Below are positions 10,672-17,945 of a stretch of DNA of 64,000 bases, piece after piece. The stretch is from Variovorax sp. (GTDB lineage Bacteria > Pseudomonadota > Gammaproteobacteria > Burkholderiales > Burkholderiaceae_C), in assembly GCA_004210915.1 (NCBI GenBank), contig SEGS01000001.1, positions 62,001 to 126,000 of the forward strand. The letters run 5' to 3'. A program made the position numbers and the translations under genes. The notes under the pieces are model-generated. The model saw only the letters and a program-made list of their open reading frames with translations, searched no databases and was not told the DNA's origin. Numbering within the stretch: the first letter of the stretch is position 1; each line of letters begins with the position of its first letter.

Positions 10672-10687
10672 TGCGCCTGAGAATCGG

Positions 10688-10711
10688 AGCCGCCGCCGAG
10701 CGGCTTCGGTT
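10688..10711 (+). terminator. Possible terminator hairpin after hppA
   Basis: AGCCGC (10688-10693) pairs with GCGGCT (10700-10705), followed by TCGGTT. The stem is good but the T-tract is poor, so this is a weak candidate between the convergent hppA and the next gene. Confidence 0.35.
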
Positions 10712-10729
10712 CCTGCCGGCGATGCGGTA

Positions 10730-11296
10730 TCAGTTGATGCGCAGGCTGGGCGGCGTGTGCGCGCCCTGCTCCACCCGCAGCGGCACGCCTTGCAGCGTAT
10801 CGAAGTCGGAAGGTGCCTCGGGCGGGCGAACGACCTCCTGCTCGTGCAGCGCGGCCACCCATTGGCCCGCAGCCGAATCGGCAGGCTCGTCGTTCGTGAA
10901 GATCCCGTCGCGCAAATAGAAGGTCTCGCCTTCCGGCCGCTCGGCGTGCAGTTCCACCAGGCGTGCAATGGGGAAGGTGTAGGTCACCATCTTTTCGCGC
11001 GTCTTCCGGTCTTTGCCGCCGCAGTTGAAGAAGCCGTCGGCCGAAATGACGATGCAGGACCCGTCCACCCCGTTATCACCCTCGGCACCGCAGTGCCAGA
11101 CGGCATTGGGCAAGCGCACGCGCACCTTGTCGATCACCAGATCGCGGGTGCGGTTCATGCTGTGAAGCGGTGGGACCAGGGACCGCAACTGCCGGAGACG
11201 GTCTGCGAAGTTGTCGTCGATTGTGAATTCCACATGGTGCGTGGTGGCGCCTGAGCGCTTGACCACCTGCATGGCGACTTTGCGCGGGCGGCTCAC
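10730..11296 (-). CDS. Conserved hypothetical protein, 188 aa
   Basis: I do not recognise this protein. It is soluble-looking and has no signal peptide. It is basic at the N-terminus (MSRPRKVAMQVVKRSG), followed by TTHHVEFTIDDNFADRLRQL. A cysteine/glycine segment (GCC-poor) contains WHCGAEGDNGVDGS and FFNCGGKDRK, suggesting a compact beta domain. The tail is acidic. It converges on hppA and is preceded by an AT-rich stretch that probably holds its promoter. Codon use is like that of its neighbours. Confidence 0.6.
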   Translation of the reverse strand: MSRPRKVAMQVVKRSGATTHHVEFTIDDNFADRLRQLRSLVPPLHSMNRTRDLVIDKVRVRLPNAVWHCGAEGDNGVDGSCIVISADGFFNCGGKDRKTREKMVTYTFPIARLVELHAERPEGETFYLRDGIFTNDEPADSAAGQWVAALHEQEVVRPPEAPSDFDTLQGVPLRVEQGAHTPPSLRIN

Positions 11297-11392
11297 GGGC
11301 GCCTCCCGGATCGCAAATCAATCGACTGGACGAAATTCAACCGTGGCGTTCGAGTTGGCATCATTGGGCAATTCGAATTAGAACTTTCTATT

Positions 11393-11422
11393 GAAAACAA
11401 TGATTTTTAATCAATTGTTTCC
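11393..11422. repeat. AT-rich imperfect inverted repeat
   Basis: Left arm GAAAACAATGATT (11393-11405) and right arm AATCAATTGTTTCC (11409-11422) are inverted copies with one bulged base around TTT. It lies in a 196-base AT-rich gap (11297-11492) upstream of the 188-aa hypothetical gene. Two copies of CAATTCGA (11370-11377 and 11434-11441 approximately) flank it. An operator or transcript hairpin is possible. Confidence 0.4.
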
Positions 11423-11492
11423 AACTGTATGACCAATTCGAGCCGTTTGAAAGCCGATTTACAAATAGGTCAGCCGCGTGACGGCTTTCGAC

Positions 11493-11723
11493 TTACTCGC
11501 TGGCTTCGTCGAGCGCCTTGCAGGAAGGTGCGCACACCGTTTGCGACTTGCCCAGCACTTGACGCGTGCGCAACTGCGCTCGAACGCGATGCTTGCCGCA
11601 CATGAAGCAGGACATCGTGGCCCCGCTGAAAGATGCCGAAGCGCGGAAGGGGGAACCGGGCGCCTTGGATTTGTAGCGCAGACCGTCAGCCAGCACCGCT
11701 GTTTTCACTTCACCTTTGGCCAT
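11493..11723 (-). CDS. Small conserved protein with a Cys-rich (zinc-ribbon-like) motif
   Basis: A 76-aa basic protein. It starts MAKGEVKTAVLADGLRYKS and has four cysteines arranged CFMC...CAPSC, that is C-x2-C then about 25 residues then C-x3-C, which suits a structural zinc site. Similar short proteins seem common in Burkholderiales, from memory, but no function is known to me. It lies 134 bases after the lipid-type operon and may be independent of it. Nucleic acid binding is a guess from charge and zinc pattern only. Confidence 0.65.
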   Translation of the reverse strand: MAKGEVKTAVLADGLRYKSKAPGSPFRASASFSGATMSCFMCGKHRVRAQLRTRQVLGKSQTVCAPSCKALDEASE

Positions 11724-11857
11724 GGACGGATTCCTTTTGCATTAGATGGCTGTCCGCCGGAGCGTGCGTGGGAGCCGTGGATCGATAAACATTCATGCTC
11801 TGCATGATGGGGGCAAACCAGCGCGATGCAAGCGCCGCCCCCCATTCTCCGGCTTAC

Positions 11858-12781
11858 TCAGGCTTCGTAGCCTGACATGGCGGCCGGCGGGGCCTGCACG
11901 TGCGCGTCCTTGAAGCGCAGCAGCAGACTGTGAAGCATCTCGGTCGACAGGCCGTGAATGACCAGTCGATGGCCGGCGCGCAGGGTCGACAGCGGCACCA
12001 GCGGATGCTTGTTGTTGACCAGAATCAGGTGCTCTGGCGCGGCCATGATGGTGGCGGCATAGATGCCGATCGTCTCGTCCAGCTGCAGCGAATTGGCGGC
12101 GCGCCAGAAGTCGTTGTCGGTCAGCATCAGCTGGTAGAGCGGCGTGAAAAGCTCGATGGCGCTCTGCAGGTCCAGGAAGTTGAGCCGCGTGCGCGGCATG
12201 TCCTCGAGCCGCAGGTCGGGCTTGCGGATCATGGAGAAGTCCACTTGCTCGGGTTTGCACAGTGCCAGGCCCTTGTCGCGCAGCGCCTTGTTCAGCCGGA
12301 TCACGAAATTGAAGAGATTCAGGTCGTGCTTGAGGAACAGGTCGTCCTTCAGGGCATCGATGTCGGCGGGCTCGAGCGGCGACGTGCTGACCGGCACGGG
12401 TGAGTTGCGGCCGATGAAAGTCAGCACCTGCGAGCCGAGATGAAAGTGCCGCAGGATGAGCCAGTTGGCCTCCGGCGAAACGAAGCGCTTCAGGCCCCAG
12501 GCCAGGAAGCGGTGCAGCAGCCGCGAGTGCGACCAGTTGCGCGGCACGAAGACCTTGCAGATCTGGAACAGGATGATGAAGGTGCGTGCCAGCGGCCTGA
12601 CGAAAGGCAGCAGGTACTGCCGGGAGGCGGAGCTGGAGTCCGTGAGCCAAGCCGCCTTGACGTCGTCCGGCAGGGGCGTGCTCTGGTCGAGGTACAGCGC
12701 AAGCCACGGGCTCGGATCGCGCTCGTCCCACGGACGGGTCAGGAAGTCGGGCTGAGGGGAGGAAGGCGTCGGGGTGCTCAT
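11858..12781 (-). CDS. Uncharacterised protein of the lipid-type operon, 307 aa
   Basis: I do not recognise this family. The protein is mostly alpha-helical with no signal peptide. A moderately hydrophobic part lies at about residues 55-110 (QYLLPFVRPLARTFIILFQI, then HRFLAWGLKRFV). The second half contains FLDLQSAIELFTPLYQLML and EHLILVNNKHPLVPLSTL. It could associate peripherally with membrane. It starts 12 bases after the ketosynthase-fusion gene stops and is the last gene of that operon, so it is probably a dedicated partner. No catalytic motif can be named. Confidence 0.65.
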   Translation of the reverse strand: MSTPTPSSPQPDFLTRPWDERDPSPWLALYLDQSTPLPDDVKAAWLTDSSSASRQYLLPFVRPLARTFIILFQICKVFVPRNWSHSRLLHRFLAWGLKRFVSPEANWLILRHFHLGSQVLTFIGRNSPVPVSTSPLEPADIDALKDDLFLKHDLNLFNFVIRLNKALRDKGLALCKPEQVDFSMIRKPDLRLEDMPRTRLNFLDLQSAIELFTPLYQLMLTDNDFWRAANSLQLDETIGIYAATIMAAPEHLILVNNKHPLVPLSTLRAGHRLVIHGLSTEMLHSLLLRFKDAHVQAPPAAMSGYEA

Positions 12782-12793
12782 GGCCGGCTATCT

Positions 12794-14719
12794 TCAACGA
12801 TCCTGCATGACATGCTGAAACTGCATCAGGTAGAGCGCCGCCGTGTGGCGGGCCGTTTCGATGATCTGTTGCGGCGCGCGGCCCGTGGGGTCGAGCGACA
12901 TCACCATTTCCACGGCCATCAGCCAGCGGGCCAGGTGATGCTCGTCGTTGTGACCGTGGTACTCGAGGAAACGGAACACGTCCGGCGGCAGCTTCAGGCT
13001 GGCCTTGAGCAGCGGCAGCAGCGCCGGCACGATGCGCTGGCCCGTTCCCTCGATGATGTAGATGGCGCCGAGCAGGCCGATGGGATCGCGCGTCGCGGCC
13101 AATCCGTGCAGATAGGCATTGAGCGCTTCCCCGCCGGGATTGCGACGCAGTGCGCTGATCTCGGCCACCTGGCCGCCAGCTTTCCGGTAATCGTCGAACA
13201 GGATCTGGAAGTCGTTCTGTTCTTCGCCGGCATGCACGTCGATGAGCGCTGCGAGCGCGGCGTAGTCGCCGGTCAGCGAAGCGGCGCCCTCGCGCATCCA
13301 CAGGCTGCCTTCGCGTACCTGCGGCACCCAGTGTTCCATCCAGTTCAGGTAGTCGGGCTGCGTGAAGCGCCGATCGCGGATGCTGCGAACGAGCGGTGTG
13401 CGCCACACCTTCGAGCGGTAGTCGTGCCAGATGGCAGCCAGTTCGGTCAGCAGATCGCGCAACGCCGCCGGTGCATCGGCAGGATCGTGCGGCGGCGCGA
13501 TCGGCTGTTCGGCCGAGACAGCCGCGGCTTGCTCCTGACGGTCGCGCGCCTGCGCAGCCGCAGCGGCGCTGCGTGCGGCTTCACCGCCACCTGCCTCCTC
13601 CACCTCGAGCAGCATGTAAGCGGCCATGAAGCGGCCCGACTCCGGCACGTAGCAAAAGATCTGCTCGCCAGGCTTCACCGCCTTCGTCTGCAGGAACTCG
13701 GCCAGCATCACGAGGATCGACGCCGCCCCGGTGTTGCCGCGCCAGGCGAGGTTGCTCCACCAACGCTCGCGCGGTATCGCGAGTCCGGCCTTGCTCATCA
13801 GATCCTCGACCACCGGGATGAACTTTTCCGACGAGTAGTGGCACAGAAAGTGATCGACGCGCGCCGGGTCGACCCAGTCGTCCTTCACCAACGTGGCGTA
13901 CTCGTGGATGCCGATGTCGAACAGGTGAGGCAGCAAGCGAATGTCCTGCCGCAACGAGAGCGCGCCGGCGGCCTCCGCTTCTTGCCACGAACCGAAATCG
14001 AGGTGGCCCTTCTGCCGGTCTTCGGTCAGGCCGAGCTGCATGCACACCGGGTAGTCGCCCGAGAAGGCGCGCTGGTGCACCCACTTGAGTCGCAGCCGAA
14101 GACCCTTCTGGCCCGCGAGCGCGGCGCCGTTCGACAGCAGCAGCGCGCCAGCGCCATCGGACAGCATCCAGCGCAGGAAGTGCGAGTCGAAGTCCGTCTC
14201 GTAGCCGCGCGCCGCGAAGCGCGAGCGCTTGAACAGGCGCGACGGCAGCTCGCTGGCGACCGCGAGCGCCATTCGGTGCGCGCCGAGTTCGATGGCCTGC
14301 GCCGCCGACTGGATCGCGGACACGCCGGCCGCGCAGATGCCGTGCACCGACAAGGTCTCCATCGGCGGCGCTGCCAGTTCGCCCTGCACCATGTTCGCGA
14401 AGCCGGGCATCAGCGCGTCGCCGCCCGAAGAGCCGGTCGCGAGCATCGAAATGGTTGCCAGGTCGACGCCACCGCGCTGCAGGCAATCGCGGATCGCGCC
14501 AGCGGCGAGCTGTGCGTTGCTGAACACGGTGCGGCCCTCGGCATCGATCGCGTAGTAGCGCTGCAGGATGCCGTTCTCCGCCAGGATGCGGCGCTTGATG
14601 CGCTGCGACATCCGGTTGAGCGGTGCGATGAAATCGTCCATGCGCTCGTTGTCGACGGGCGCGCCGGGCATGAAGAAGCCGGCGCTCTGGAGGGTGACGT
14701 TCTGGAATGAAACTGGCAT
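12794..14719 (-). CDS. Ketoacyl-ACP synthase III-like domain fused to a heme-oxygenase-like diiron domain
   Basis: A 641-aa two-domain protein. Residues 1-375 are a thiolase-fold KAS III domain with the full Cys-His-Asn set: Cys129 in VHGICAAG, His294 in FLCHYSS and Asn329 in WRGNTGAAS. A low-complexity Ala/Gln/Glu linker (about 376-410) leads to a helical domain at 415-641. This domain resembles heme-oxygenase-like (TenA/UndA/CADD-type) iron enzymes: Glu499/Glu500, Glu557 in YIIEGTG, and His588-x3-Asp592-x2-His595. A canonical His after the first Glu is not evident. The protein probably condenses or transfers an acyl chain and oxidises it. It lies in operon with two desaturase-type membrane enzymes. 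Confidence 0.8.
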   Translation of the reverse strand: MPVSFQNVTLQSAGFFMPGAPVDNERMDDFIAPLNRMSQRIKRRILAENGILQRYYAIDAEGRTVFSNAQLAAGAIRDCLQRGGVDLATISMLATGSSGGDALMPGFANMVQGELAAPPMETLSVHGICAAGVSAIQSAAQAIELGAHRMALAVASELPSRLFKRSRFAARGYETDFDSHFLRWMLSDGAGALLLSNGAALAGQKGLRLRLKWVHQRAFSGDYPVCMQLGLTEDRQKGHLDFGSWQEAEAAGALSLRQDIRLLPHLFDIGIHEYATLVKDDWVDPARVDHFLCHYSSEKFIPVVEDLMSKAGLAIPRERWWSNLAWRGNTGAASILVMLAEFLQTKAVKPGEQIFCYVPESGRFMAAYMLLEVEEAGGGEAARSAAAAAQARDRQEQAAAVSAEQPIAPPHDPADAPAALRDLLTELAAIWHDYRSKVWRTPLVRSIRDRRFTQPDYLNWMEHWVPQVREGSLWMREGAASLTGDYAALAALIDVHAGEEQNDFQILFDDYRKAGGQVAEISALRRNPGGEALNAYLHGLAATRDPIGLLGAIYIIEGTGQRIVPALLPLLKASLKLPPDVFRFLEYHGHNDEHHLARWLMAVEMVMSLDPTGRAPQQIIETARHTAALYLMQFQHVMQDR

Positions 14720-14729
14720 GTCGTCGTGT

Positions 14730-15653
14730 TCAGTAGGTAGGCGGCTTCACAGCCATGAGCGAGCGGCTGCGAAAACGGGGCCAGACGGCGCCGAGCAGGT
14801 AGACCCGAACCATGTACGGCACGAGGCCGCGTTCGTTGAGGACGGGATCGACGCGTTCGCGGTAGTGCGTGCGGTGCAGTCGGGTGAGTTCGGACCAATG
14901 GGCATGCGGGTTCTCGTGGTGAGCAGTGTGAAGCCCGATGTTGAACAGCAACGGGTTCACCAGACCCTCGAAATTGCGCGCGTAGTTGAGTTGGCTACCG
15001 TGCGTATCGCCAGACGCTCCCGGGGCGCTGCCATCGGCATGCGCGTGCTGCAGGTAATTGGTCGCCAGCAACCAGTGCAGGCCGTGCAATTGCGGAACGA
15101 TCACGAAGATCAGCGCTTTCTTCCAGTCGATCGCCAGCAGCAAGGCCCAGGAACCGAGCCATACCGCGTACTGCGCCATGCAATAGCCGAAGGCACCGAT
15201 GGCCTTGCGGCGCAATTGCGCAAGCCATTCGAAGAACAGCGGGTACAGCACCCATCCGGCCTGCAGCGGATGCAGCAGATAGCCCAGCAGGTGGTTGGTG
15301 TCGCCGCTGGCGAACCGATAGGTGCGCGCCACGTCCTTCGGCCCATGCCGATGGCGATGGTGGTTGGCCACGTGCGCGGGCCAGAACACGAAGGTCGGGT
15401 GGCCCTGCAGCAGCGTCACATAGAAATCGGTCACGCGATTGGCGATGCGCCCTCGCCACATGCGCAGGTGCGTGTGGTTGTGGTGGATCACGCCGATGCC
15501 CAGCGTGAGGAACAGCATGAGCGCATAGGCTGGCCACCAGAAGCCGTTCACCCACTGCCACGCGGCCAGCGCCGGCAGCGCCACCAGATAAGCCAAGCTT
15601 TGCCAATCGCGCCAGTGGCGTAGCCGCGGCAAGGGCTCAGGCCAGCGGCGCAT
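14730..15653 (-). CDS. Membrane fatty-acid desaturase
   Basis: A 307-aa membrane protein of the fatty-acid desaturase superfamily, which uses a diiron centre to insert a double bond or hydroxyl into an acyl chain. The three histidine boxes are present: HHNHTH, ANHHRHRHG and HTAHHENPH. Hydrophobic pairs flank them. The ATG at 15653 overlaps the end of the upstream hydroxylase gene by 17 bases, which implies coupled translation. The ketosynthase-fusion gene follows after 10 bases. The acyl substrate is unknown and may be CoA-, ACP- or lipid-bound. Confidence 0.85.
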   Translation of the reverse strand: MRRWPEPLPRLRHWRDWQSLAYLVALPALAAWQWVNGFWWPAYALMLFLTLGIGVIHHNHTHLRMWRGRIANRVTDFYVTLLQGHPTFVFWPAHVANHHRHRHGPKDVARTYRFASGDTNHLLGYLLHPLQAGWVLYPLFFEWLAQLRRKAIGAFGYCMAQYAVWLGSWALLLAIDWKKALIFVIVPQLHGLHWLLATNYLQHAHADGSAPGASGDTHGSQLNYARNFEGLVNPLLFNIGLHTAHHENPHAHWSELTRLHRTHYRERVDPVLNERGLVPYMVRVYLLGAVWPRFRSRSLMAVKPPTY

Positions 15654-16440
15654 GGGAGCTGGCGGCCGCAGTGTCCATGCGTTGCTGCCGCGCACGGAAG
15701 GTCGCCAGCTGCACGTCGGCCGCATCGCCCGCCAGGCGTGTACCGAACAGCCGGTCCATGAAGGTGAACTGGAATCCGTAGTTGCCGCTGTGGCAGGCGT
15801 GGTGCAGGTGGTGGCGGCGACTTGCCGCGAACCAGTGGCTGTACGACACGCGCGTGAAGAAGTCGTAGTTGGCGTGACCGATGGCGTTGAAGAACAGGCT
15901 GAACACGGGCACCGATGCCAGCGCCCAGAAACTGAAATCGTGCACCACCATCGGCGGCAGGATCACGTTGCCCAGCATGGCCGCCTCGATGGGATGGAAG
16001 CTGTAGGTCGAGAACGGCGTGCAAACCATCGAGCGATGGTGCGGGCCATGAAAGCGCCGCAACGGCCGTGTGTGCAGCAACCGGTGGTTGATCCAGAAGT
16101 GCACGTCGTTCCAGATCGCCAGCACCACGATCTCGGCTGCGATGCGCCAGCCCGAAGGATCGACGGCAAACTTGGCCCAGCCCAGCTGGAGGAGACCCCA
16201 CGGAAACACCATGCCCAGGCCGAAGATCAGCACCGAGACGCCGGACTGCGTCAGTTCTTCCCGCAACTGCCCTGCCCGTACCGGGCGCGGGTCGAGCACC
16301 CGGCCGATGCCCAATGCCGGCAACAGCTTGCGCGTGACGAACCACATCGCCGCGCCAAAACCAAGGTAAAGGCTGCCGAAGAACAGGAGGCCCCAGGCCA
16401 TCACCTGAGTCGCCGAGAGGGTCTGAAAAGTATGTGCCAC
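15637..16440 (-). CDS. Sterol desaturase / fatty-acid hydroxylase superfamily protein
   Basis: A roughly 267-aa membrane enzyme with the histidine boxes of the fatty-acid hydroxylase superfamily: WNDVHFWINHRLLH, FHGPHHRSM and RRHHLHHACHSGNYG, followed by the usual FMDRLFGT. Four or more hydrophobic segments are visible. The start is unsure: I chose GTG 16440, but TTG 16491 and ATG 16401 are possible and none has a good ribosome site. It heads the leftward lipid-type operon and is divergent from an aldehyde dehydrogenase. Members hydroxylate or desaturate alkyl chains. Confidence 0.82.
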   Translation of the reverse strand: MAHTFQTLSATQVMAWGLLFFGSLYLGFGAAMWFVTRKLLPALGIGRVLDPRPVRAGQLREELTQSGVSVLIFGLGMVFPWGLLQLGWAKFAVDPSGWRIAAEIVVLAIWNDVHFWINHRLLHTRPLRRFHGPHHRSMVCTPFSTYSFHPIEAAMLGNVILPPMVVHDFSFWALASVPVFSLFFNAIGHANYDFFTRVSYSHWFAASRRHHLHHACHSGNYGFQFTFMDRLFGTRLAGDAADVQLATFRARQQRMDTAAASSHAPLA

Positions 16441-16511
16441 GGCGGCAAGTATCCACGCACTGGCGCCGCAGAGCGGCGGGTAGCGCCGCAACAGTTGCGT
16501 GAGAATGCGGC

Positions 16512-17945
16512 ATGCAGCTCAATTTCATCGCCAATGCCGACGTTCCTTCCGCGTCGGGCCGCACCCTCCCCGTCATTGATCCGTCCGACGGCCAGGTCTT
16601 CGACGAAGTGCAGCGCAGCAATGCCGACGACATCGACGCGGCCGTGCGCGCAGCACGCGACTGCTTTGACAACGTCTGGCACAAGGTGAGCGCAGCCGAC
16701 CGTGGCCGCCTGCTCTACAAGCTCTCGCAGAAAGTCGCGGAGCACGCCGACGAGCTGGCGCTGCTCGAGCAGCGCGACTGCGGCAAACCGGTAAAGCAGG
16801 CGCGCGCCGATGCGCTGGCGCTGGTGCGCTACTTCGAGTTCTATGCCGGCGCCTGCGACAAGCTGCACGGCGAGACCATTCCCTACCAGGACGGCTACAG
16901 CGTCTTCACTTGGCGCGAGCCGCACGGCGTCACGGGCCACATCATTCCGTGGAACTACCCGATGCAAATCTTCGGGCGCAGCGTGGGCGGGGCGCTCGCC
17001 GCGGGCAACGCCTGCGTGGTCAAGCCGGCGGAAGATGCCTGCCTGTCATTGATCCGCGTGGCGCAACTGGCGGCCGAGGTCGGCTTCCCGGCCGGTGCGG
17101 TGAACATCGTCACGGGCTACGGCCATGAGGTGGGCGACGCATTGGCGCGGCACGAGGGCATCGACCACATCAGCTTCACGGGCAGCCCGAAGATCGGCAC
17201 GCTGATCCAGCAGGTCGCAGCCGAGCGCCACTGCCCCGTCACGCTCGAACTCGGCGGCAAGAGCCCGCAGATTCTTTTCGCCGATGCCGACATCGGCGCG
17301 GCGATCCCGACGCTGATCAACGCCATCGTGCAGAACGCCGGCCAGACCTGCTCGGCCGGATCGCGCGTGCTGATCGAGCGGGAGATCTACGAACTGGTGC
17401 TCGAGCGTCTGGGCACCGCCTTCGAGGCGCTGCGCGTGGGCCCGGCCGCGATGGACCTGGACGTCGGGCCCCTCATCCGCCAGACGCAACAGCAGCGCGT
17501 GTGGGACTTCCTTTCCGACGCCCAGCACGCCGGCATCCCGATGGTCGCGCAGGGCGTGGTCGTCGAAGAGGCGCCGGAGACCGGCTTCTACCAGGCGCCG
17601 ACGCTGCTGCGTGACGTGCCGGTCGACCATCGCCTGGCGCAAGAAGAGGTGTTTGGCCCGGTGCTGGCCGCCATGTCATTCAGCGACGAAGACGAGGCCG
17701 TCGCGCTCGCCAACGCGACCCAGTTCGGTCTGGTGGCGGGCGTGTGGACGCAGAACGGCGCGCGCCAGTTCCGCATGGCCAAGCGCGTGCGTGCCGGTCA
17801 GGTCTTCATCAACAACTACGGTGCGGGCGGCGGTGTCGAGTTGCCTTTCGGCGGCGTGAAATCCTCGGGCTATGGCCGCGAGAAGGGCTTCGAAGCGCTG
17901 TACGGGTTCACGACCCTGAAGACCGTGGCTGTGCGCCACGGTTGA
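16512..17945 (+). CDS. Aldehyde dehydrogenase family protein
   Basis: A 477-aa NAD(P)+-dependent dehydrogenase. The catalytic residues are present: Asn148 in PWNYP, Lys171 in VVKPAED, Glu246 in LELGGKSP and Cys280 in NAGQTCSAGS. The overall pattern is closest to betaine- or gamma-aminobutyraldehyde-type members, but substrate cannot be inferred safely. It is divergent from the lipid-type operon with only about 20-70 bases between starts, so shared regulation and oxidation of a fatty aldehyde made by that operon are plausible. It could equally be an unrelated catabolic enzyme. Confidence 0.9.
   Translation: MQLNFIANADVPSASGRTLPVIDPSDGQVFDEVQRSNADDIDAAVRAARDCFDNVWHKVSAADRGRLLYKLSQKVAEHADELALLEQRDCGKPVKQARADALALVRYFEFYAGACDKLHGETIPYQDGYSVFTWREPHGVTGHIIPWNYPMQIFGRSVGGALAAGNACVVKPAEDACLSLIRVAQLAAEVGFPAGAVNIVTGYGHEVGDALARHEGIDHISFTGSPKIGTLIQQVAAERHCPVTLELGGKSPQILFADADIGAAIPTLINAIVQNAGQTCSAGSRVLIEREIYELVLERLGTAFEALRVGPAAMDLDVGPLIRQTQQQRVWDFLSDAQHAGIPMVAQGVVVEEAPETGFYQAPTLLRDVPVDHRLAQEEVFGPVLAAMSFSDEDEAVALANATQFGLVAGVWTQNGARQFRMAKRVRAGQVFINNYGAGGGVELPFGGVKSSGYGREKGFEALYGFTTLKTVAVRHG

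Follow-up and report, generated by a model that had tools for sequence, protein, structure and literature searches.

The window, i.e., the whole 64,000-nucleotide stretch of DNA from a Variovorax genome analyzed here, carries four leftward (minus-strand) genes spanning positions 16440 to 11858 which, judging from their distribution across sequenced relatives, are a conserved and co-inherited unit that is kept even where it is physically split. In order, these genes encode a membrane fatty-acid-hydroxylase superfamily protein (FAH), a membrane fatty acid desaturase family protein (FADS), a ketosynthase fused to a haem-oxygenase-like dimetal oxidase (KS-HDO), and a protein of the family DUF6999. 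With middling confidence, we propose that they form a dedicated accessory O2-dependent operon that makes a lipid or small molecule of acyl origin, in which the KS joins, the HDO oxidizes, the membrane enzymes tailor, and DUF6999 assists; the product and chemistry are predicted from sequence.

A compact operon around a ketosynthase–oxidase fusion

The first gene, FAH (15637–16440, minus strand), encodes 267 aa from a GTG start and matches PF04116 (FA_hydroxylase, E-value 2.2e-21 to 2.6e-21, the former with the GTG start), with histidine boxes HRLLH, HGPHH, and HHLHH. This start was picked by comparison with a relative, and the longest open reading frame begins with TTG at 16491. FADS (14730–15653, minus strand; 307 aa) matches PF00487 (FA_desaturase, E-value 1.3e-21 to 1.8e-21), displays the boxes HHNH, HVANHH, and HTAHH, and has an alternative longer open reading frame beginning at 15725. 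The 641-aa KS-HDO fusion protein (12794–14719, minus strand), for which relatives of full length were found, combines a StlD/DarB-like KS domain (residues 6–373; 13601–14704) and an HDO domain (residues 412–639; 12803–13486), and its Pfam matches to ACP_syn_III_C (8.2e-8) and Haem_oxygenas_2 (7.9e-9) are both over gathering thresholds. The last gene (11858–12781, minus strand) encodes the 307-aa DUF6999 protein (PF22523), the constant partner of the fusion.

FAH and FADS overlap by 17 bases and the next gaps are 10 and 12 bases, so that the tight leftward four-gene set described in an earlier, sequence-only reading of this DNA was borne out. The same reading had placed the start of a divergent aldehyde dehydrogenase (ALDH; Aldedh, E-value 1.6e-154) about 20–70 bases away, and we measured 20 or 71 bases from its plus-strand start at 16512, depending on the FAH start; likewise, Pfam and NCBIfam matches agree that no acyl carrier protein (ACP), thioesterase, or exporter is among the four genes. 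Two of its labels stood only in part: the "KAS III-diiron fusion" is a fusion, but the nearest branch of its KS is StlD/DarB and its "diiron" half is haem-oxygenase-like, while the "unknown 307-aa protein" has this length but falls in a named, if uncharacterized, family. No promoter-like sites were found, and terminator-like sites numbered 3 vs 3.2 in shuffles.

The four genes are inherited together

A named scan using an alignment of 11 fusions as query (E-value up to 1e-3) identified 240 stretches encoding relatives, fusion not being certain in all of them, and the best 80 of these 240 all match across both the KS and HDO domains. All four genes were found in 77 of these 80 (tblastn, 1e-8), a count of tblastn hits that therefore includes broken copies such as L089, and 76 of the 77 complete loci hold them on one strand with <150 bases between neighboring hits, indicating that the grouping is not due to chance. 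The three exceptions are a 3.3-kb contig (L070), a site without FAH (L125), and a split set (L124). The latter belongs to Variovorax sp. MHTC-1, in which one contig carries FADS and KS-HDO while abutting FAH and DUF6999 genes occupy the usual site (L172), i.e., all four genes are retained despite a split into two pairs. Joint conservation in relatives, which the sequence-only reading had put forward as a check, was thus upheld even by a dispersed set. Behind the relocated FADS-KS-HDO pair of MHTC-1 (L124:7074-11167) lies another membrane protein of PF00487, 380 aa long, which is possibly a further tailoring enzyme.

Among 17 further loci, chosen for the fusion or DUF6999, 12 hold all four genes, and the others are without FAH (L050), FADS (L057 and L058), or both (L052 and L053). 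Within the genus, DUF6999 was detected in 38 of 61 sampled genomes, in one case (G917) as a fragment where a contig ends. KS-HDO and DUF6999 were both present in 15 of 25 genus genomes (KS-HDO being cut in G010) and both absent in the other 10. All five DUF6999-less Variovorax genomes fetched lacked the four-gene block at the syntenic site, where the gene order was ALDH-peroxiredoxin-PLD-(unknown gene)-HPPase-PPase. Plasmid scans yielded one matching record only, from Pseudoalteromonas.

The ALDH and PLD-like genes as residents of the site

The ALDH gene, which the sequence-only reading had suggested could handle an aldehyde in the pathway, was rejected as a pathway gene. It is conserved at >85% identity within 30 of the 80 named loci, all Variovorax by title, and 28 of these have at least one gene (peroxiredoxin, PLD, or another known neighbor) between ALDH and FAH; of the remaining two, L066 has nothing in between and L125 is without FAH. 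Moreover, an orthologue with 86–92% identity exists in 15 of 15 DUF6999-less genus genomes searched (out of 23 such genomes), which makes ALDH a resident neighbor rather than an operon member.

In 29 of the 34 named loci that have one, a PLD/cardiolipin-synthase-like gene sits immediately upstream of FAH and shares its strand (hits within 60 bases, mostly 10–14). It was dropped as a fifth member and treated as resident, since it occupies the same site in all five DUF6999-less genomes. The window has no PLD gene beside the operon, the closest match in its genome being 46% identical, and both peroxiredoxin and PLD are absent from positions 10672–11857 and 16441–16511, though they flank the operon or the empty site in many Variovorax loci. 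These neighbors bear on an alternative in which the product of the operon stays in the membrane as a modified lipid instead of being secreted. Two membrane acyl-modifying families in the operon, the PLD-like gene upstream of FAH, and a 1133-aa Aas-like protein (MFS, acyltransferase, and AMP-binding domains) after DUF6999 in L053 (L053:4697-8098) would all suit it. However, PLD is a resident, no hit to the Aas-like protein came from the related loci L148 and L150, those in L106 and L128 are weak (28–29%) and on the opposite strand, and the most widespread neighbor family besides the four genes is found in 7 of 25 chosen loci. We consider a membrane-lipid role improbable on this balance.

A three-gene core outside Burkholderiales

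At five loci beyond this order, KS, HDO, and DUF6999 occur unfused, as individual genes next to one another. Three of these (L053, L148, and L150) come from another class than the window and are taken for Alphaproteobacteria, and the other two (L052 and Pseudoalteromonas L173) are Gammaproteobacteria. With the three genes adjoining but unfused there, the fusion probably arose later than this core. Trees built from 25 KS rows and 23 HDO rows would allow a single fusion event (support 67/99 and 65/90, long branches flagged), while the separate KS genes form no single group in the KS tree; one fusion event fits both trees, yet is weakly supported. L052, L053, L148, and L150 have neither FAH nor FADS beside the core, and L050, L057, L058, and L125 yielded just one of the two, so it may be that the membrane enzymes leave the KS-HDO product untouched.

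Two of these loci have a His-rich membrane protein of 185–188 aa ahead of the KS (L052:11441-12007 and L173:8439-8996). It displays conserved His/Glu/Asp motifs (DWCCHR, HE..AH.DV, and EMHAH), its L052 copy matched no Pfam family, and it may be an unrecognized membrane metal enzyme.

The KS domain resembles StlD/DarB

Based on sequence comparison, the KS resembles the StlD/DarB family, yet by cut-off is not a member: it reached 322 bits against NCBIfam NF005293 (E-value 4.3e-96; cut-off 450) and 253 bits against NF053539 (cut-off 550). Ring formation may thus not carry over from this family. The separate triad KSs of L148, L052, and L150 scored 322–398 and 284–362 bits against the same two models. 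StlD (5gk0) was nevertheless matched at an E-value of 6.3e-59, far more strongly than FabH2 (3.4e-8) or OleA (5vxd; 3.5e-4), and a Foldseek search with the fusion placed StlD in ranks 1–6 (5gk2, E-value 1.6e-29), with OleA and FabH structures ranking after it. The triad Cys129, His294, and Asn329 aligns with that of StlD and is present in 95 of 95 alignment rows, comprising 91 fusions plus 4 separate pairs that had been joined, with duplicates kept and some genomes in both collections.

The genome of the window also encodes an additional, stand-alone KS that belongs to the StlD/DarB family (L045, G000:C1:11134-12255), at 576 bits against the cut-off of 450. Across the 25-genome set, such a separate DarB-like KS occurs in 10 of 15 KS-HDO-bearing genomes vs 1 of 10 others (Fisher p 0.012, uncorrected for relatedness); as five KS-HDO-bearing genomes do without it, the fusion has no need of that KS.

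The HDO domain has a substituted metal ligand

The HDO domain matches PF14518 (E-value 7.9e-9; 36 bits vs gathering 28.9) and PDB 3dde (8.8e-6), and is helical in the predicted model; the top 50 structures listed in the fold search of the fusion were all KS structures. Canonical HDOs share the metal motif E-H-E-H-(D/E)-H (PMC11363339 and the review PMC13108848, both in part), from which the motif here, E500-D503-E557-H588-D592-H595, deviates at one position. Specifically, E500, E557, H588, D592, and H595 are invariant across the 95 rows, leaving five of six positions canonical, while all 95 rows have an aspartate, D503, in place of the canonical second-position histidine, a histidine that PDB 3dde and all five stand-alone HDO relatives compared have at this position. 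With this ligand replaced, cofactor and reactivity may differ from those of canonical HDOs. A conserved H496, four residues ahead of E500, is a candidate that may serve as a substitute ligand. The parts of the PMC11363339 survey covered here report a canonical motif for ~85% of 150 HDO groups and no strong prediction for ~9%, and do not name the group of the fusion.

Stand-alone HDOs with the canonical histidine lie close behind large open reading frames in relatives (L020:1558-2160, L021:1504-2082, and L024:1495-2058). By eye, these large frames look like AMP ligases, and the stand-alone HDOs may be part of a different HDO pathway.

The HDO UndA turns fatty acids into 1-alkenes by decarboxylation (PMC13108848, in part), and the fusion could be read along the same lines: its KS would make a simple beta-ketoacyl product, as FabH or OleA do, and its HDO would remove the carboxyl group to leave an alkene, methyl ketone, or similar compound, on which the membrane enzymes modify the chain. 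The rank of OleA and FabH structures next after StlD would be in line with this, as would the second PF00487 protein behind the relocated pair in L124. The sequence of the KS, however, is far nearer StlD than either of these enzymes, the four genes include no thioesterase or hydrolase, and the HDO has an aspartate where the canonical ligand is histidine; we judge such a decarboxylating route unlikely. An HDO half acting as a metal or oxygen-stress protein, not a biosynthetic oxidase, is very improbable: this is one option proposed for DtpC, a predicted HDO whose protection of dried cells is mechanistically unexplained (PMC13232832, in part), and the divergent metal site would agree with it, but fusion to an intact-triad KS, and a neighboring KS at all triad loci examined, would be hard to explain.

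DUF6999, a predicted helical protein that accompanies KS and HDO

DUF6999 is assigned to PF22523 (E-value 5.4e-131; 436 bits vs gathering 27). It was found in 9 of 398 sampled Pseudomonadota genomes, that of the window counted, and KS and HDO adjoin it in 9 of 9. In samples centered on two bearing genomes, the centers counted, it turned up in 2 of 147 and in 1 of 148 genomes at the level of orders and in 2 of 61 for one genus, and the named control Caulobacter vibrioides carries it as well. The predicted model is all-helical (mean pLDDT 81.1, pTM 0.81), and H112, H152, D153, H276, and E281 are invariant in 14 aligned rows, a conservation pattern that could reflect an active site or a metal site.

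Fold, profile, and PDB sequence searches, together with a viral fold library, detected no relative of known structure, fold, or sequence. We also rejected DUF6999 as a hidden HDO: BesC, UndA, PolF, and HrmI appeared in a weak fold list, all with E-values above 1, the profile comparison gave a probability of 0.2%, no PDB entry matched by sequence, and nothing in the viral fold library came below 0.001.

Proposed pathway

In the dedicated operon that we favor, the KS would join two acyl thioesters from primary metabolism in StlD/DarB-like fashion, yielding a beta-keto or cyclohexanedione-type intermediate. The fusion would hand this intermediate straight to the HDO, which may oxidize it through oxidative decarboxylation, desaturation, or aromatization. 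In the nomenclature tabulated in PMC3949708 (in part), DarA is the DAR-aromatase and DarB the DAR-cyclase, and we suggest that the HDO stands where resorcinol pathways have DarA as a separate aromatase. FADS and FAH would modify the chain before or after the KS and HDO steps, and DUF6999 would assist by handling an intermediate or through a further catalytic step.

A more specific version, which we offer tentatively and regard as rather doubtful, is that KS, HDO, and DUF6999 provide an alternative finish to StlD/DarB-type condensation, in which an in-cis HDO, its metal site made carboxylate-rich by the His-to-Asp exchange, replaces DarA and new oxidized dialkyl ring or enone lipids result, DUF6999 being a new helical enzyme or chaperone. 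If true, this would add a new class of such lipids across Burkholderiales, other Pseudomonadota having rarer forms. More broadly, the operon represents an orphan pathway with testable chemical logic in many Burkholderiales, its HDO subgroup, with one metal ligand exchanged, offers a way to study how O2 chemistry depends on the ligand set, and the loci give DUF6999 its first genomic context.

Comparison with known systems

The sequence-only reading knew of no named pathway with this set of genes, and we likewise found no characterized cluster matching the whole set in the part of the open-access literature covered. A search of that literature found no paper on DUF6999, nor, in titles and the starts of abstracts, one on a KS fused to an HDO.

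The Acinetobacter protein DtpC is a predicted HDO as well, but sits in a two-gene operon with a katE catalase gene (PMC13232832, in part). OleA, of the long-chain olefin pathway, shares the thiolase-type fold with the KS and is matched by Foldseek; unlike in that pathway, no OleB, OleC, or OleD match is among the four genes, and OleA is much further in sequence than StlD. The HDO half is comparable to UndA, BesC, SznF, CADD, and AetD in matching PF14518 above gathering and in five of six motif positions, but differs from them in the aspartate that replaces the histidine of the first pair in all 95 rows and in the attached KS. Compared to StlD/DarB of dialkylresorcinol, cyclohexanedione, and stilbene biosynthesis, the whole KS aligns and shares the Cys-His-Asn triad and the HYSSE and GNTG motifs, whereas it scores under the family cut-offs, is fused to an HDO, and comes with no DarA aromatase or ACP family match among the four genes. 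Taken together, we see the system as a variation on known enzyme kinds, in an uncharacterized pathway.
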